Shown here: one piece after another, positions 8,664 to 53,305 of the stretch
Position numbering within the stretch: the stretch's first letter is position 1
How the letters are laid out: each line of letters opens with the position of its first letter
Virus record (IMG/VR): IMGVR_UViG_3300043256_000158
Span: 1 to 53,305 of that record
Source: a virus
Strand: one strand, 5' to 3'
Length of the DNA: 53,305 nucleotides
The notes under the pieces: model-generated
Seen by the model: only the letters and a program-made list of their open reading frames with translations
The model's database searches: none
Told to the model about the DNA's origin: nothing
Translations under genes and position numbers: made by a program

Positions 8664-8698
8664 CGTTGCTATCTTGACTGGAATATGCTAAATTATCA

Positions 8699-8849
8699 GT
8701 GCTGCGGCAGCGGGGAAAGCAGACCCGCTCGGTTATCGGATAAAGTTCTAGACTTTAGCCGGTCGGCATTTGGGATAGGTGAAGCCGCGACGGCGGTGAT
8801 GTACGCAACGACAATTACGCCGAGCCGGAGTAGCGCCCGGCCCGCAGCA
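8699..8849. ncRNA. Structured element, copy 1 of 2
   Basis: This 151-base non-coding element shares its ends with 33337-33478. An outer helix can form between GTGCTGCGG (8699-8707) and CCGCAGCA (8842-8849). A hairpin GCGGG / CCCGC (8710-8714, 8724-8728) holds the loop GAAAGCAGA, and a 3' hairpin GCCGG / CCGGC sits near 8824-8842. In the other copy the first hairpin is GCGTG / CACGC with the same loop, a compensatory change that supports RNA structure. The middle differs between copies. It lies between the GroES-like and scaffold genes. I do not recognise the family, and the transcribed strand is not certain. Confidence 0.6.
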
Positions 8850-8851
8850 TC

Positions 8852-9247
8852 TCATGTCAGCACCGCCAGTATCTCCTTGTCATGGACCACCCGGATCAGG
8901 TCCGTAGGATCGGCCTCGCGCGTGATGCCGGCGTACTTCGATATCATCACCCGATCGCCAAGCTCCGGCTTGCGACCTTTCCAGTCCGGCAATGTAAAGG
9001 CATTGCCCCCACAGGCCAGCAAAGTCCCCTCCGTGGCAGCCATCTGATTCCGGTCGCGGCGCTCCTGTGGGATAAAGATGCCGCCGGAGGTGACTTCCTC
9101 CTTCGGGTCGAGGCGCACCACGCACTTGAACTCGACTGGCTCGATGCCGGTGTCGTTGATGTCCTCAGGCGCCCAATCCACGGGCATTCTAGTAGCCGGA
9201 ATGTCCGTCTTCACTGTCTTGAACTTCAGACTGACTCTCTTGCCCAT
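8852..9247 (-). CDS. GroES-like co-chaperonin
   Basis: This 131-residue protein carries the Cpn10 (GroES) pattern. A strand leads to a mobile-loop segment 'EEVTSGGIFIPQE' (about 69-81), then comes 'ATEGTLLACGGNAF' (corresponding to the GEVLAVG strand of GroES), 'LGDRVMISKYAG', and a final 'HDKEILAVL' matching the end of GroES. It is longer than bacterial GroES (about 97 residues) by an N-terminal extension. Phage co-chaperonins such as T4 gp31 work with host GroEL to fold the capsid protein. Its position beside scaffold and capsid genes fits that role. Confidence 0.82.
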   Translation of the reverse strand: MGKRVSLKFKTVKTDIPATRMPVDWAPEDINDTGIEPVEFKCVVRLDPKEEVTSGGIFIPQERRDRNQMAATEGTLLACGGNAFTLPDWKGRKPELGDRVMISKYAGITREADPTDLIRVVHDKEILAVLT

Positions 9248-19786: not shown

Positions 19787-19972
19787 TCAAACGCACTTAA
19801 TTAACGTAAAGCGTAAAGCCCCAATCCGAATTGATCGGCGATGTCCATTGCGCTCACTAAACAAACTATTCCGGTTCCACTTCACATTGACCTGCCATCG
19901 TCTCGGGAGCGGGACATATAGGAAACTTGCATTTAGACCGTCAGCCGGGTAGATATCTTTCCACGTCTTCAC
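19787..19972 (-). CDS. Small basic protein, unknown
   Basis: I start at GTG 19972, seven bases after GGAGG and overlapping the TGA of the previous small gene (GTGA), giving 61 residues. It reads 'KTWKDIYPADGLNASFLYVP' at the start and is basic toward the end ('RNGHRRSIRIGALRFTLIKC'). No motif is recognised. A 26-base gap separates it from the nuclease gene downstream. Confidence 0.6.
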   Translation of the reverse strand: MKTWKDIYPADGLNASFLYVPLPRRWQVNVKWNRNSLFSERNGHRRSIRIGALRFTLIKCV

Positions 19973-20064
19973 GCCCTCACCTCCACGCGCCCATCCATGC
20001 GCTTCTGCCACCGCCTGTCGAAGCCGCGGCTTTGCATCTTTGCCCCACGCCTGCGGTGGGTCAT
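19969..20064 (-). CDS. 31-residue basic protein similar to the HNH protein's C-terminal tail
   Basis: A short frame starts at the ATG at 20064 (overlapping the upstream TGA) and ends in a GTGA junction with the next gene. Its sequence contains 'MQSRGFDRRWQKRMDGRVEV', which closely follows the end of the HNH protein at 20243-20596 ('LASRGFEKRLRKYMDGTVEV'). The shared pattern is SRGF-x2-R-x2-K-x-MDG-x-VEVR. This suggests a partial duplication of the HNH gene's 3' end kept as a separate, translationally coupled micro-gene. Confidence 0.5.
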   Translation of the reverse strand: MTHRRRGAKMQSRGFDRRWQKRMDGRVEVRA

Positions 20065-20246
20065 GTTAATACAACGCTATCCCGTTCAATCATGCGGACC
20101 GCAGGGTGGTAATAACCGCCCGTAAGTTTATGCGGGCCACAATGAACAGAGCCGATCCCGTAACTTTCGCTTTCGTGCCCACAGAACGGACAGACCATGA
20201 CCCGTGGTGTTCGTTTGTTCACATCTGGGTCAATAACCTCAATCAC
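20061..20246 (-). CDS. Small zinc-ribbon protein
   Basis: A 61-residue protein starting at GTG overlapping the HNH gene stop (GTGA). It holds 'VMVCPFCGHESESYGIGSVH' followed by 'CGPHK', a single zinc-binding knuckle of the C-x2-C...H/C type. Such small proteins are common in phage early regions, and some counter host restriction, but I cannot assign a role. Confidence 0.65.
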   Translation of the reverse strand: MIEVIDPDVNKRTPRVMVCPFCGHESESYGIGSVHCGPHKLTGGYYHPAVRMIERDSVVLT

Positions 20247-20596
20247 GTCCTCACCTCCACTGTCCCATCCATATACTTCCGTAGTCGTTTCTCGAAGCCA
20301 CGTGAGGCCAGCTTAGAAAAACGTCGCTTCTTGACCCCGAGGTGATATTTTCGCTGCCGATCGGCCTTCCTCACCATGCGGATGTCCACCGCCGAAATTT
20401 TCTTGTGGCACCGCACCCGCACGGCACGTAAATTCTCCGGTGTATCGGCGCCGCCAAGGGCAAGCGCGGTGATGTGGTCAAATTGGTAGCCTTCACGCCG
20501 CGTGAGCTTGACGTTACAGCCGCAGGCGCAGTGCAATTTCTGCCGGCGGAGAATGCCGAGGTAGGTACAGCGGGGAAATTTGCGGCGGCGGGTCAT
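20243..20596 (-). CDS. HNH endonuclease
   Basis: This 117-residue protein has a compact HNH nuclease core: 'LHCACGCNVKLTRREGYQFD' with a Cys-x-Cys-x-Cys cluster, 'HITALALGGADTPENLRAV' (the first His and the Asn), and 'RVRCHKKISAVD' (the final His). A basic C-terminal tail follows. It may be a homing nuclease or a packaging-related nicking enzyme. The start overlaps the stop of the preceding 51-residue gene (ATGA). Confidence 0.82.
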   Translation of the reverse strand: MTRRRKFPRCTYLGILRRQKLHCACGCNVKLTRREGYQFDHITALALGGADTPENLRAVRVRCHKKISAVDIRMVRKADRQRKYHLGVKKRRFSKLASRGFEKRLRKYMDGTVEVRT

Positions 20597-33217: not shown

Positions 33218-33309
33218 TTCTTTATGCCCAGGTCGATCACGGCGGCCTGTTGGACGGTACAGGCCCCGAGCAGCAGAAACAGGAGGACGCCGGGGAAAAA
33301 GTTGAGCAT
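33218..33309 (-). pseudogene. Lipoprotein gene, 5' fragment (interrupted by the IS)
   Basis: The start ATG at 33309 lies seven bases after AAGGAG. The sequence reads 'MLNFFPGVLLFLLLGACTVQ', a signal peptide with the lipobox LLGAC, then 'QAAVIDLGIKK', where the IS begins. Read through into the IS, the frame adds about 13 foreign codons and stops at 33178. The 3' part is at 30751-30942. The product would be a small outer-membrane lipoprotein of the lysis region, perhaps an outer spanin-like or unrelated lipoprotein. Confidence 0.8.
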
Positions 33310-33336
33310 ATCGTTCTCCTTCGTGTTAGGATCCGG

Positions 33337-33478
33337 GTGCTGCGGCGGCGTGGAAAGCAGACACGCGTGGCCTGAAGTTGGGACTATTCGAGATGGGATT
33401 GCCGCCCACAGGGTTGCCAGTGGTGGAAACCGAGAGGCCACAGCCCAACGAAGCCGGAGTAGCGCCCGGCCCGCAGCA
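33337..33478. ncRNA. Structured element, copy 2 of 2
   Basis: The ends match 8699-8849. The outer helix joins GTGCTGCGG (33337-33345) and CCGCAGCA (33471-33478). The hairpin GCGTG / CACGC (33348-33352, 33362-33366) holds the identical loop GAAAGCAGA, and the 3' hairpin GCCGG AGTAGCGC CCGGC is identical. The middle can form GTGGCCT / AGGCCAC (33367-33373, 33435-33441) crossed by GTTGGG / CCCAAC, a possible pseudoknot. It lies in the leader of the broken lipoprotein gene, between it and the M15 peptidase gene. Confidence 0.6.
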
Positions 33479-33633
33479 CGCCAGGATATGACCCGGATAC
33501 CCCTAGTGGTCGCAATGCCGGGTATGGCCGTGGGAGTCGTGACGCGAAAGACCCGCCAAGGGCTGCGGTGACAGCACAAAGGTCAAGAGACAGTTGCAAA
33601 TGTCGCAGCCGGTGGGATCCCGGCAGTTCTCCT

Positions 33634-52152: not shown

Positions 52153-53305
52153 TACATCTGCATCTGCATCGTTATCGAGGCTTCCAAAGTGGCGGCATCG
52201 ACGCCGGAAACCGGGCGGATACAGAGCGCAATCACGTCCTGAGTTCCATCGATCTGGGAACCGAGGGATAGCGTGTTCGTGATGTCGAATAAGTGGTCGA
52301 GCGCAGCGCCGCCGCCACTGCCACTGGTGGCATACCCGCCGGCTATGATAAGCCCGGTCGAGCCAATCGTTACCTTGTTGGCCGTGATACCAACTGCCCG
52401 CTGGAAACCGCTGTTGTCCTCGTCCGAGAAACTAAGTGCAGTGCTGGCCACCGTGGGATTATGGATCAGCAGCCATTCCAGCTTCTCGCTTGCTGTCTCA
52501 ATCAGGAACCCAACATCTTTGACCCTCGTCCGGCCGCCGATGTGAGTCGCCTTTCGTCTGAGGGCCAGAACGCAATGGATCGAGTTCTCCGCATCGGTAG
52601 TGTAGGCCGCACCCTCGGTCGAATGATAGCTGATCAACCCGGTGTCGTTGGTCCCACCCTCGGACATGACGGCGGCACAAATGCAGCGCATCGAGCACAC
52701 GCCCGACGACGTGGTTGTTACGATCCTATACCTGACCGGCAGATTGGGCGTCGAGGTCCACGGGATCGCGATGGTGTTAGCGGCCAGAAATTCATGAGCG
52801 TATTGGATCACCCCGGCGATTTCGAAGCCGACCCGTACCCGTCCGGCCGAAAGCCACTGAAAATCGACTACCAGGATGACATCCTTCGTCCAGTCCATCG
52901 TTATTCCGGATGGATTGGCCGCATCGGCATCGCCATCGAAATTATCTTGATCCCAGCTTGCTTGGGCCACCTTGTTTTCGACCGTCGAACCGCTGTCGTG
53001 TGTTCTCAATATCAAATTAATCGTACCGGCATCGCTCTGAAGCAATACTCCATTGGTTGCTGTGTTGTAGCCCATCTCCCGGACGCAGCCGGTCTTGGTG
53101 CCCGAGACCAGTTCGAGAACGCCAGTCATGTTTACGAACTGCGATTTGCCAGGCTGGTACGGAAAGTGCTGATAGGTTTGGCGAATCCGCTCGCCAGCCG
53201 TGGTGTCGGTCGAGGTGAAATCGGTATAGGGCTTGTCCAGCGTCGGCGCGCTGAGCGCCATGGTCCCGCTCACGAGGCTATTCTGCCAGAACAGGGCCTG
53301 CTGGT
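52152..53305 (-). CDS. Tail structural protein, C-terminal part (continues from position 1-603)
   Basis: The frame enters at the right edge of the window and runs to a stop at 52152. The first 135 or so codons repeat the frame at 1-407. If the ends are joined, the full protein starts at 603 and has about 449 residues. It is beta-rich: 'INLILRTHDSGSTVENKVAQ', 'ILVVDFQWLSAGRVRVGFEI', 'IPWTSTPNLPVRYRIVTTTS'. It ends in 'DVIALCIRPVSGVDAATLEA', a common closing pattern of phage structural proteins. The complete function is unknown. Confidence 0.78.
   Translation of the reverse strand, partial: QQALFWQNSLVSGTMALSAPTLDKPYTDFTSTDTTAGERIRQTYQHFPYQPGKSQFVNMTGVLELVSGTKTGCVREMGYNTATNGVLLQSDAGTINLILRTHDSGSTVENKVAQASWDQDNFDGDADAANPSGITMDWTKDVILVVDFQWLSAGRVRVGFEIAGVIQYAHEFLAANTIAIPWTSTPNLPVRYRIVTTTSSGVCSMRCICAAVMSEGGTNDTGLISYHSTEGAAYTTDAENSIHCVLALRRKATHIGGRTRVKDVGFLIETASEKLEWLLIHNPTVASTALSFSDEDNSGFQRAVGITANKVTIGSTGLIIAGGYATSGSGGGAALDHLFDITNTLSLGSQIDGTQDVIALCIRPVSGVDAATLEASITMQMQM
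52899..53305. repeat. Terminal near-identical repeat, right copy
   Basis: This segment matches 1-407 with about 23 substitutions and no gaps. About 18 of the differences cluster in a stretch of some 60 bases (about 53093-53156); outside this patch the copies are about 98 percent identical. See the left copy for the interpretation. Confidence 0.9.

Follow-up and report, generated by a model that had tools for sequence, protein, structure and literature searches.

Two copies of a structured element in a phage genome

The stretch of viral DNA analysed here (the window; 53,305 nt, positions 1 to 53,305 of IMG/VR record IMGVR_UViG_3300043256_000158) carries two copies of an element on its plus strand, while the neighbouring genes, namely a GroES-like gene, an ORF at the usual place of the scaffold gene and an endolysin gene, all lie on the opposite strand. 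Copy 1 occupies 8699-8850 and copy 2 occupies 33337-33479. An initial annotation had located both correctly. The closing stem (P1) lies at 8699-8707/8842-8849 in copy 1 and at 33337-33345/33471-33479 in copy 2; the sequence together with the frame of the family described below adds one last pair to P1 of copy 1 (G8699-U8850, a G-U pair), which thus joins 8699-8707 with 8842-8850. In copy 1, P1 is followed by a 2-nt linker (CA, 8708-8709), of which the C is invariant across the family and the second base is G or A, by the P2 hairpin GCGGG-GAAAGCAGA-CCCGC (8710-8728), with a covarying stem and a near-invariant loop, by a hypervariable insert of 94 nt (8729-8822) and by the P3 hairpin GCCGG-AGTAGCGC-CCGGC (8824-8841), which abuts P1. 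Copy 2 consists of P2 (GCGTG-GAAAGCAGA-CACGC, 33348-33366), an insert of 85 nt (33367-33451) and P3 (GCCGG-AGTAGCGC-CCGGC, 33453-33470). The conserved ends described earlier were found again, the 3' 27 nt being identical and the 5' 30 nt 90% identical between the copies, and so were the differing middles, which are unrelated to each other, and the paired change from GCGGG/CCCGC to GCGTG/CACGC around GAAAGCAGA, which is real.

The GroES-like co-chaperonin gene (phrog_3188) spans 8852-9247, with the portal gene to one side of it and the ORF in the scaffold position to the other. The GroES/scaffold junction recurs in L519, a phage whose portal is 58% identical, but there it lacks the element. Elsewhere in the window, a 300-nt direct repeat (1-300 and 52899-53198, 92%) lies at both contig ends and may reflect either related genes or an imperfect terminal repeat, and two 60-nt copies that are 73% alike (19969-20028 and 20243-20302) are spaced 274 nt apart.

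Stem covariation and strand bias

Across the family, the 5' and 3' ends pair over 7-9 bp to form P1, which closes the RNA. Among members selected to have at least 4 P1 pairs, pairing holds in 99-100% up to pair 5, in 90% at pair 7 and in 64% at pair 9, and then falls to background. P2 and P3 each comprise 5 bp and carry near-invariant loops, GAAAGCAGA in P2 and AGUAGCGM in P3, with the hypervariable insert between the two hairpins and P3 abutting P1. In a set of 60 diverse trimmed copies, we counted 314 cells in which both sides of a pair had changed, compared with 88.7 after shuffling and no more than 89 after sliding the partners, and 95.4% of cells were paired as opposed to 34-42% with slid partners. 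This covariation is overwhelming, bears out the selection on RNA structure that had been proposed from the two copies, and tells us, as far as comparison of sequences can, that the element is a genuine RNA. Since the search anchors fix the loops in the 60-copy set, we also ran a stem-only search in which the stems were fixed, the loops were left free and P1 had to reach at least 5 bp; it returned at least 117 distinct matches, nearly all with the same two loops. At interior positions of P1, P2 and P3, G-U exceeds A-C by 50:16 (p=2e-5), which identifies the plus strand as the RNA. Purines predominate in the inserts on this strand, making up more than half of the bases in 92% of them.

A widespread family

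The anchors GGAAAGCAGAC and GGAGTAGCG, placed 70-100 nt apart, gave 102 matches in IMG/VR, and wider spacings gave many more; a reversed-sequence control gave none. In total, 242 copies with 210 distinct middles, mostly from IMG/VR, passed an independent test for P1, P2 and P3 pairing; we refer to them as type I. Isolated phages with type I elements include the Pseudomonas phages PotUPM1, Persinger, D14H and Orimi01/Orisa and the Ochrobactrum phage POI1126, and more diverged versions occur in Sulfitobacter phage pCB2047-A and Synechococcus phage Ssp-JY40. Bacterial genomes yielded 20 pattern matches, 8 of them with correct P1, P2 and P3 (all Proteobacteria), and plasmids yielded only weak, chance-like matches. 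In one contig (L076, reverse strand, 7458 and 7602) two elements stand in tandem, the second beginning directly after P1 of the first.

None of the Rfam 15 models matched the window at or above its gathering score, and both copies gave only chance-level matches at relaxed E-values. Searches with 20 relatives returned only tRNA, C4, isrK and an IS1222 element, none of which is the RNA itself. We found no description of the element in the open-access literature; subscription papers or preprints could hold one. Of the checks suggested by the initial annotation, the Rfam search thus leaves the novelty standing and the search for homologues found many with supported covariation (the 242 structure-checked copies), whereas the expected common gene context did not materialize, as the homologues share no neighbouring gene and their orientation is mixed. 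Judged by sequence comparison, the element apparently belongs to a large undescribed class of phage RNAs present in hundreds of phages, and such a widespread class would have stayed unannotated even in textbook phages.

Promoter-like sites and gene context

A sigma-70-like site with its start on P1 was found in 45 of 205 members, compared with 0-6 of 205 at other offsets and 6 of 210 on the mirror strand, corresponding to an approximately 15-fold enrichment (overall p=5e-19), and a clear promoter is seen in only about one fifth of type I members. In the window, the site of copy 1 (8666-8694, plus strand) consists of TTGCTA, a 17-nt spacer and the extended -10 TGcTAAATT, while that of copy 2 (33302-33332, plus strand) consists of TTGAGC, a 19-nt spacer and the extended -10 TGtTAGGAT; both end 4 nt before P1. 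Their own scores are 12.1, among the best of the 205 elements, and 9.0, respectively. Because a strict consensus scan lists neither of them (copy 1 has 8/12 consensus matches), the promoter evidence resides in the family-wide position and not in the two window sites alone. Immediately upstream of the copy 1 site lies an intrinsic terminator of the minus-strand operon (8664-8642, minus strand).

That the promoter-like site starts exactly at the first stem argues that the element is an RNA gene of its own. Only 10 of 209 members have a terminator-like site no more than 100 nt from P1; in Pseudomonas phage Persinger, a terminator hairpin follows P1 immediately. All 17 tRNA genes found within 500 nt of a type I element are on the same strand. 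Otherwise, the neighbours of the homologues share neither family nor orientation: by crude ORF calls, both flanking genes run with the element in 55 cases and both against it in 42, while 35 pairs are convergent and 32 divergent. The two copies had been taken to lie in leaders of late genes and to act as a regulator, processing signal or anti-termination site; the genes in question are encoded on the minus strand, opposite to the RNA, and this, together with the mixed context and the promoter-like sites at P1, speaks against such a reading. On gene context and promoter position we rejected a leader or antitermination element of late genes.

The insert is hypervariable and exchanged

Inserts are about 30 to about 200 nt long, and most of them are unrelated to one another (167 of 210 are singletons). 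In two pairs of contigs (L134/L231 and L190/L191), flanks that are 94-98% identical enclose unrelated inserts; conversely, in four pairs (L005/L016, L199/L223, L210/L247 and L207/L243) inserts that are 88-97% identical sit between unrelated flanks. At one locus of P. aeruginosa phages, a long outer stem is kept while its interior varies between phages, being type I in D14H, a version with an enlarged P2 in phi297, AUS531phi and D14P, and the sister type described below (type II) in YMC P52; phages CF63a and Atpa001 are without the element. BR153a has an unrelated interior within the same outer stem, and this RNA-like insert (L277, 918-1037) is possibly yet another family. Taking the contig pairs and this locus together, we conclude that both inserts and entire elements are exchanged.

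The inserts are hardly more stable than expected, with a mean z of -0.43 against -0.18 for control DNA (p=0.03), only marginally beyond shuffles; a strongly folded insert, and with it a structured decoy, therefore finds little support. Complementarity between the two window inserts and the phage's own transcripts reaches 10-12 nt (shuffled mean 11), which is no excess over chance, and we rejected an antisense role against the phage's own genes on these grounds. Nine inserts (L171, L172, L183, L196, L203, L211, L232, L238 and L267) share the 3' motif GAGAAAGGCxxTGTCGGCCTTTGAGGATAGCC and a CACCTGAAAAACC box, and may be of a single type directed at the same target.

Probable loop-loop contact and tRNA likeness

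In one member, L490, both loops have changed together, to GAAAGUAGA and AGUAACGC, with the compensatory replacement of C6/G5 by U6/A5, as expected if C6 of the P2 loop pairs with G5 of the P3 loop. In addition, position 3 of P2 co-varies with position 4 of P3 (p=5e-4, based on few variants and uncorrected for phylogeny). Together with the loops recovered in the unbiased search, this co-variation makes the pseudoknot that had been suggested for copy 2 likely as a loop-loop contact across the family, and it is probable that the P2 and P3 loops of type I touch.

The arrangement recalls tRNA and the tRNA-like domain of tmRNA, with which the element has in common a closing stem, a 2-nt linker, a short D-like hairpin and a 5-bp T-like hairpin that abuts the stem; the probable contact of its loops would match the tRNA elbow, and a large insert stands where tRNA has its anticodon arm, which is also the case in tmRNA. 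It differs in that it is without the T-loop consensus and that P1 comprises 7-9 bp of free sequence. CCA 3' of P1 shows no clear enrichment among family members, and ARAGORN made no tRNA or tmRNA call spanning the frame in 215 windows, its only two tRNA calls being inside inserts. We therefore regard the tRNA-like fold as a topological analogy. T arms resembling those of tRNA were found in 13 of 210 inserts, as opposed to 0.6 in shuffled sequences and none on the opposite strand.

A sister family in phages P1, D3 and HK620

Type II RNAs follow the plan P1, AAU, GCGCA-GGCUGA-UGCGC, variable insert, AAG, GCCGG-AGAUCAGCA-CCGGC, P1, and have no matching family in Rfam. P3 of the YMC type (CCGGAGATCAGCACCGG) was found in at least 120 IMG/VR contigs, and at least 99 distinct type II inserts pass the structure check. 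The two loops could form 5 bp with each other (GCUGA/UCAGC), a complementarity that does not vary. A 39-nt query representing one type II 5' end found matches in 226 phage records of GenBank, those of P1, HK620 and D3 among them, and in 1,004 of the 5,426 complete genomes of E. coli; both counts are sequence matches, structure-checked in part. A position within tRNA gene clusters is seen for some members, chiefly those of type II. In phages P1 and D3 the type II RNA is located inside a tRNA gene cluster, and in HK620 between qut and the late terminator; all 15 tRNA genes within 500 nt of type II elements share their strand. Promoter-like sites are little enriched (5 of 99), and type II is therefore probably processed out of longer transcripts. 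Directly upstream of type II in P1, HK620 and other enterobacterial phages lies a long-range stem, ACAGGTAAGAGCATT...AGTGCTCTTACC, with a variable interior that holds a T arm in P1 (L425 around 2350-2500, L427 around 2380-2500, L342 and L287); it looks like a third RNA unit in tandem.

A proposed tRNA-like clamp for exchanged effectors

The reading we favour, though tentatively, is that the element is a small non-coding phage RNA gene of about 150 nt, in which a tRNA-like clamp displays an exchanged insert, probably directed against a host factor. In such an RNA, P3 would be stacked on P1, and contact between the loops of P2 and P3 would create a tRNA-like elbow or L-shape, with P1 corresponding to the acceptor, P2 to the D arm, P3 to the T arm and the insert to a replacement of the anticodon arm. 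The clamp would stabilize the RNA and might be recognized by conserved host RNA machinery, whereas the insert would be the effector, serving to bind or decoy some host factor. The likeliest candidate would be a factor of defence or RNA processing that is not the same in every host. A target of this kind would explain the fast exchange of inserts, and genes in conflict with host defence are expected to show just this pattern, with cassettes replaced rapidly at sites that stay the same.

Two of the alternatives, both of which we consider unlikely, assign the work to one part of the molecule. Many phage RNAs act by base-pairing with mRNAs, and the clamp could be a stability scaffold that presents the insert as a guide or seed for host or phage mRNAs. 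The near absence of structure in the inserts beyond that of shuffled sequence would suit such a role, but the window inserts match their own phage's transcripts at chance level only and most members are without an Hfq-type terminator. Alternatively, the RNA could act through its clamp alone, on the ribosome, RNase P or another tRNA-handling enzyme, with the insert as a tolerated spacer, to which the conserved loops and junction, the tRNA-like topology and the adjacent same-strand tRNA genes would point; a spacer, however, should drift or shrink, yet intact cassettes are shared between unrelated sites and inserts are purine-biased on one strand.

The remaining readings are far less probable. 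An intergenic position, and the location of the HK620 type II RNA between qut and the late terminator, are what a cis-acting leader, antitermination or processing signal would show, but we hold this to be very improbable given that no downstream gene is shared, that the four flank orientations occur in similar numbers, that promoter-like sites begin at P1 and that the window neighbours are on the opposite strand. Slightly less probable still is a mobile DNA element or recombination site with IS200/IS605-like ends folding as single-stranded DNA: near-identical inserts at unrelated sites and element-free sites in relatives would fit, whereas the covarying stems, the G-U excess on one strand, the variation of the P1 sequence from element to element and the promoter-like sites fixed to P1 would not, and no transposase is prominent among the neighbour clusters, which are annotated in part. 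Least of all do we expect a self-cleaving or processing ribozyme. Phage ribozymes adjoining tRNAs do exist, as the theta ribozymes illustrate (PMC10879173), and the two conserved loops probably interact; on the other hand, no Rfam ribozyme matched even at relaxed E-values, few junction bases are conserved and conservation resides in the hairpin loops. We also considered a CsrA/RsmA sponge, as both loops contain GGA and the element adjoins a csrA-like gene in D14H relatives, and rejected it because GGA is lost in several variants, for example in P3 of Persinger, P3 of POI1126 and P2 of the Synechococcus phage. A retron, DGR or intron was set aside, no reverse transcriptase or interrupted gene having been seen near the elements in an unsystematic look.

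Returning to the clamp with exchanged inserts, a broader and more doubtful version of this reading is that phages of Proteobacteria carry two or more sister families of cassette RNAs shaped like tRNA, in which two interacting hairpins form a conserved clamp for hypervariable effectors that phages swap like anti-defence genes. If true, they would be the RNA counterpart of an anti-CRISPR locus, unnoticed in P1, D3 and HK620 and present in about one fifth of E. coli genomes. A fixed frame with an exchanged middle makes the testable prediction that the middle determines the target, and if that target is host defence or the tRNA machinery, the family would offer a large natural collection of inhibitory RNAs and exemplify a new kind of conflict between phage and host.

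Comparison with known systems

YrlA and other bacterial Y RNAs combine an end-paired stem with a tRNA-like module. The element shares this combination, and some of its inserts contain T arms, but it has two hairpins with probably interacting loops and no Rfam match. Racr RNA anti-CRISPRs are phage small RNAs that inhibit host defence (PMC10651486), which is the kind of function proposed here for the clamp RNA; the difference is that Racrs mimic CRISPR repeats. The Pas/STnc100 RNAs are sRNAs of lambdoid prophages whose neighbours include tRNA genes and further structured RNAs (PMC13192938). They differ from the element in having a 3' terminator stem-loop and a probable Hfq site, with no P1/P2/P3 clamp described, and the 3' intrinsic terminator with poly-U that characterizes them has a terminator-like counterpart in only the 10 of 209 members mentioned above. 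Nearest in kind, though not in structure, are GOLLD and ROOL, which are phage-borne and often near tRNA genes, GOLLD being made up of one conserved and one variable half, in some cases with a tRNA in the linker (PMC12286853). The element resembles them in being phage-borne and often close to tRNA genes. Their Rfam models matched neither the window nor the 20 relatives, and they measure 600-800 nt, compared with about 150 nt here, with other sequence and helices; in the element, by contrast, a closed clamp encloses the variable part, which is exchanged as a cassette.
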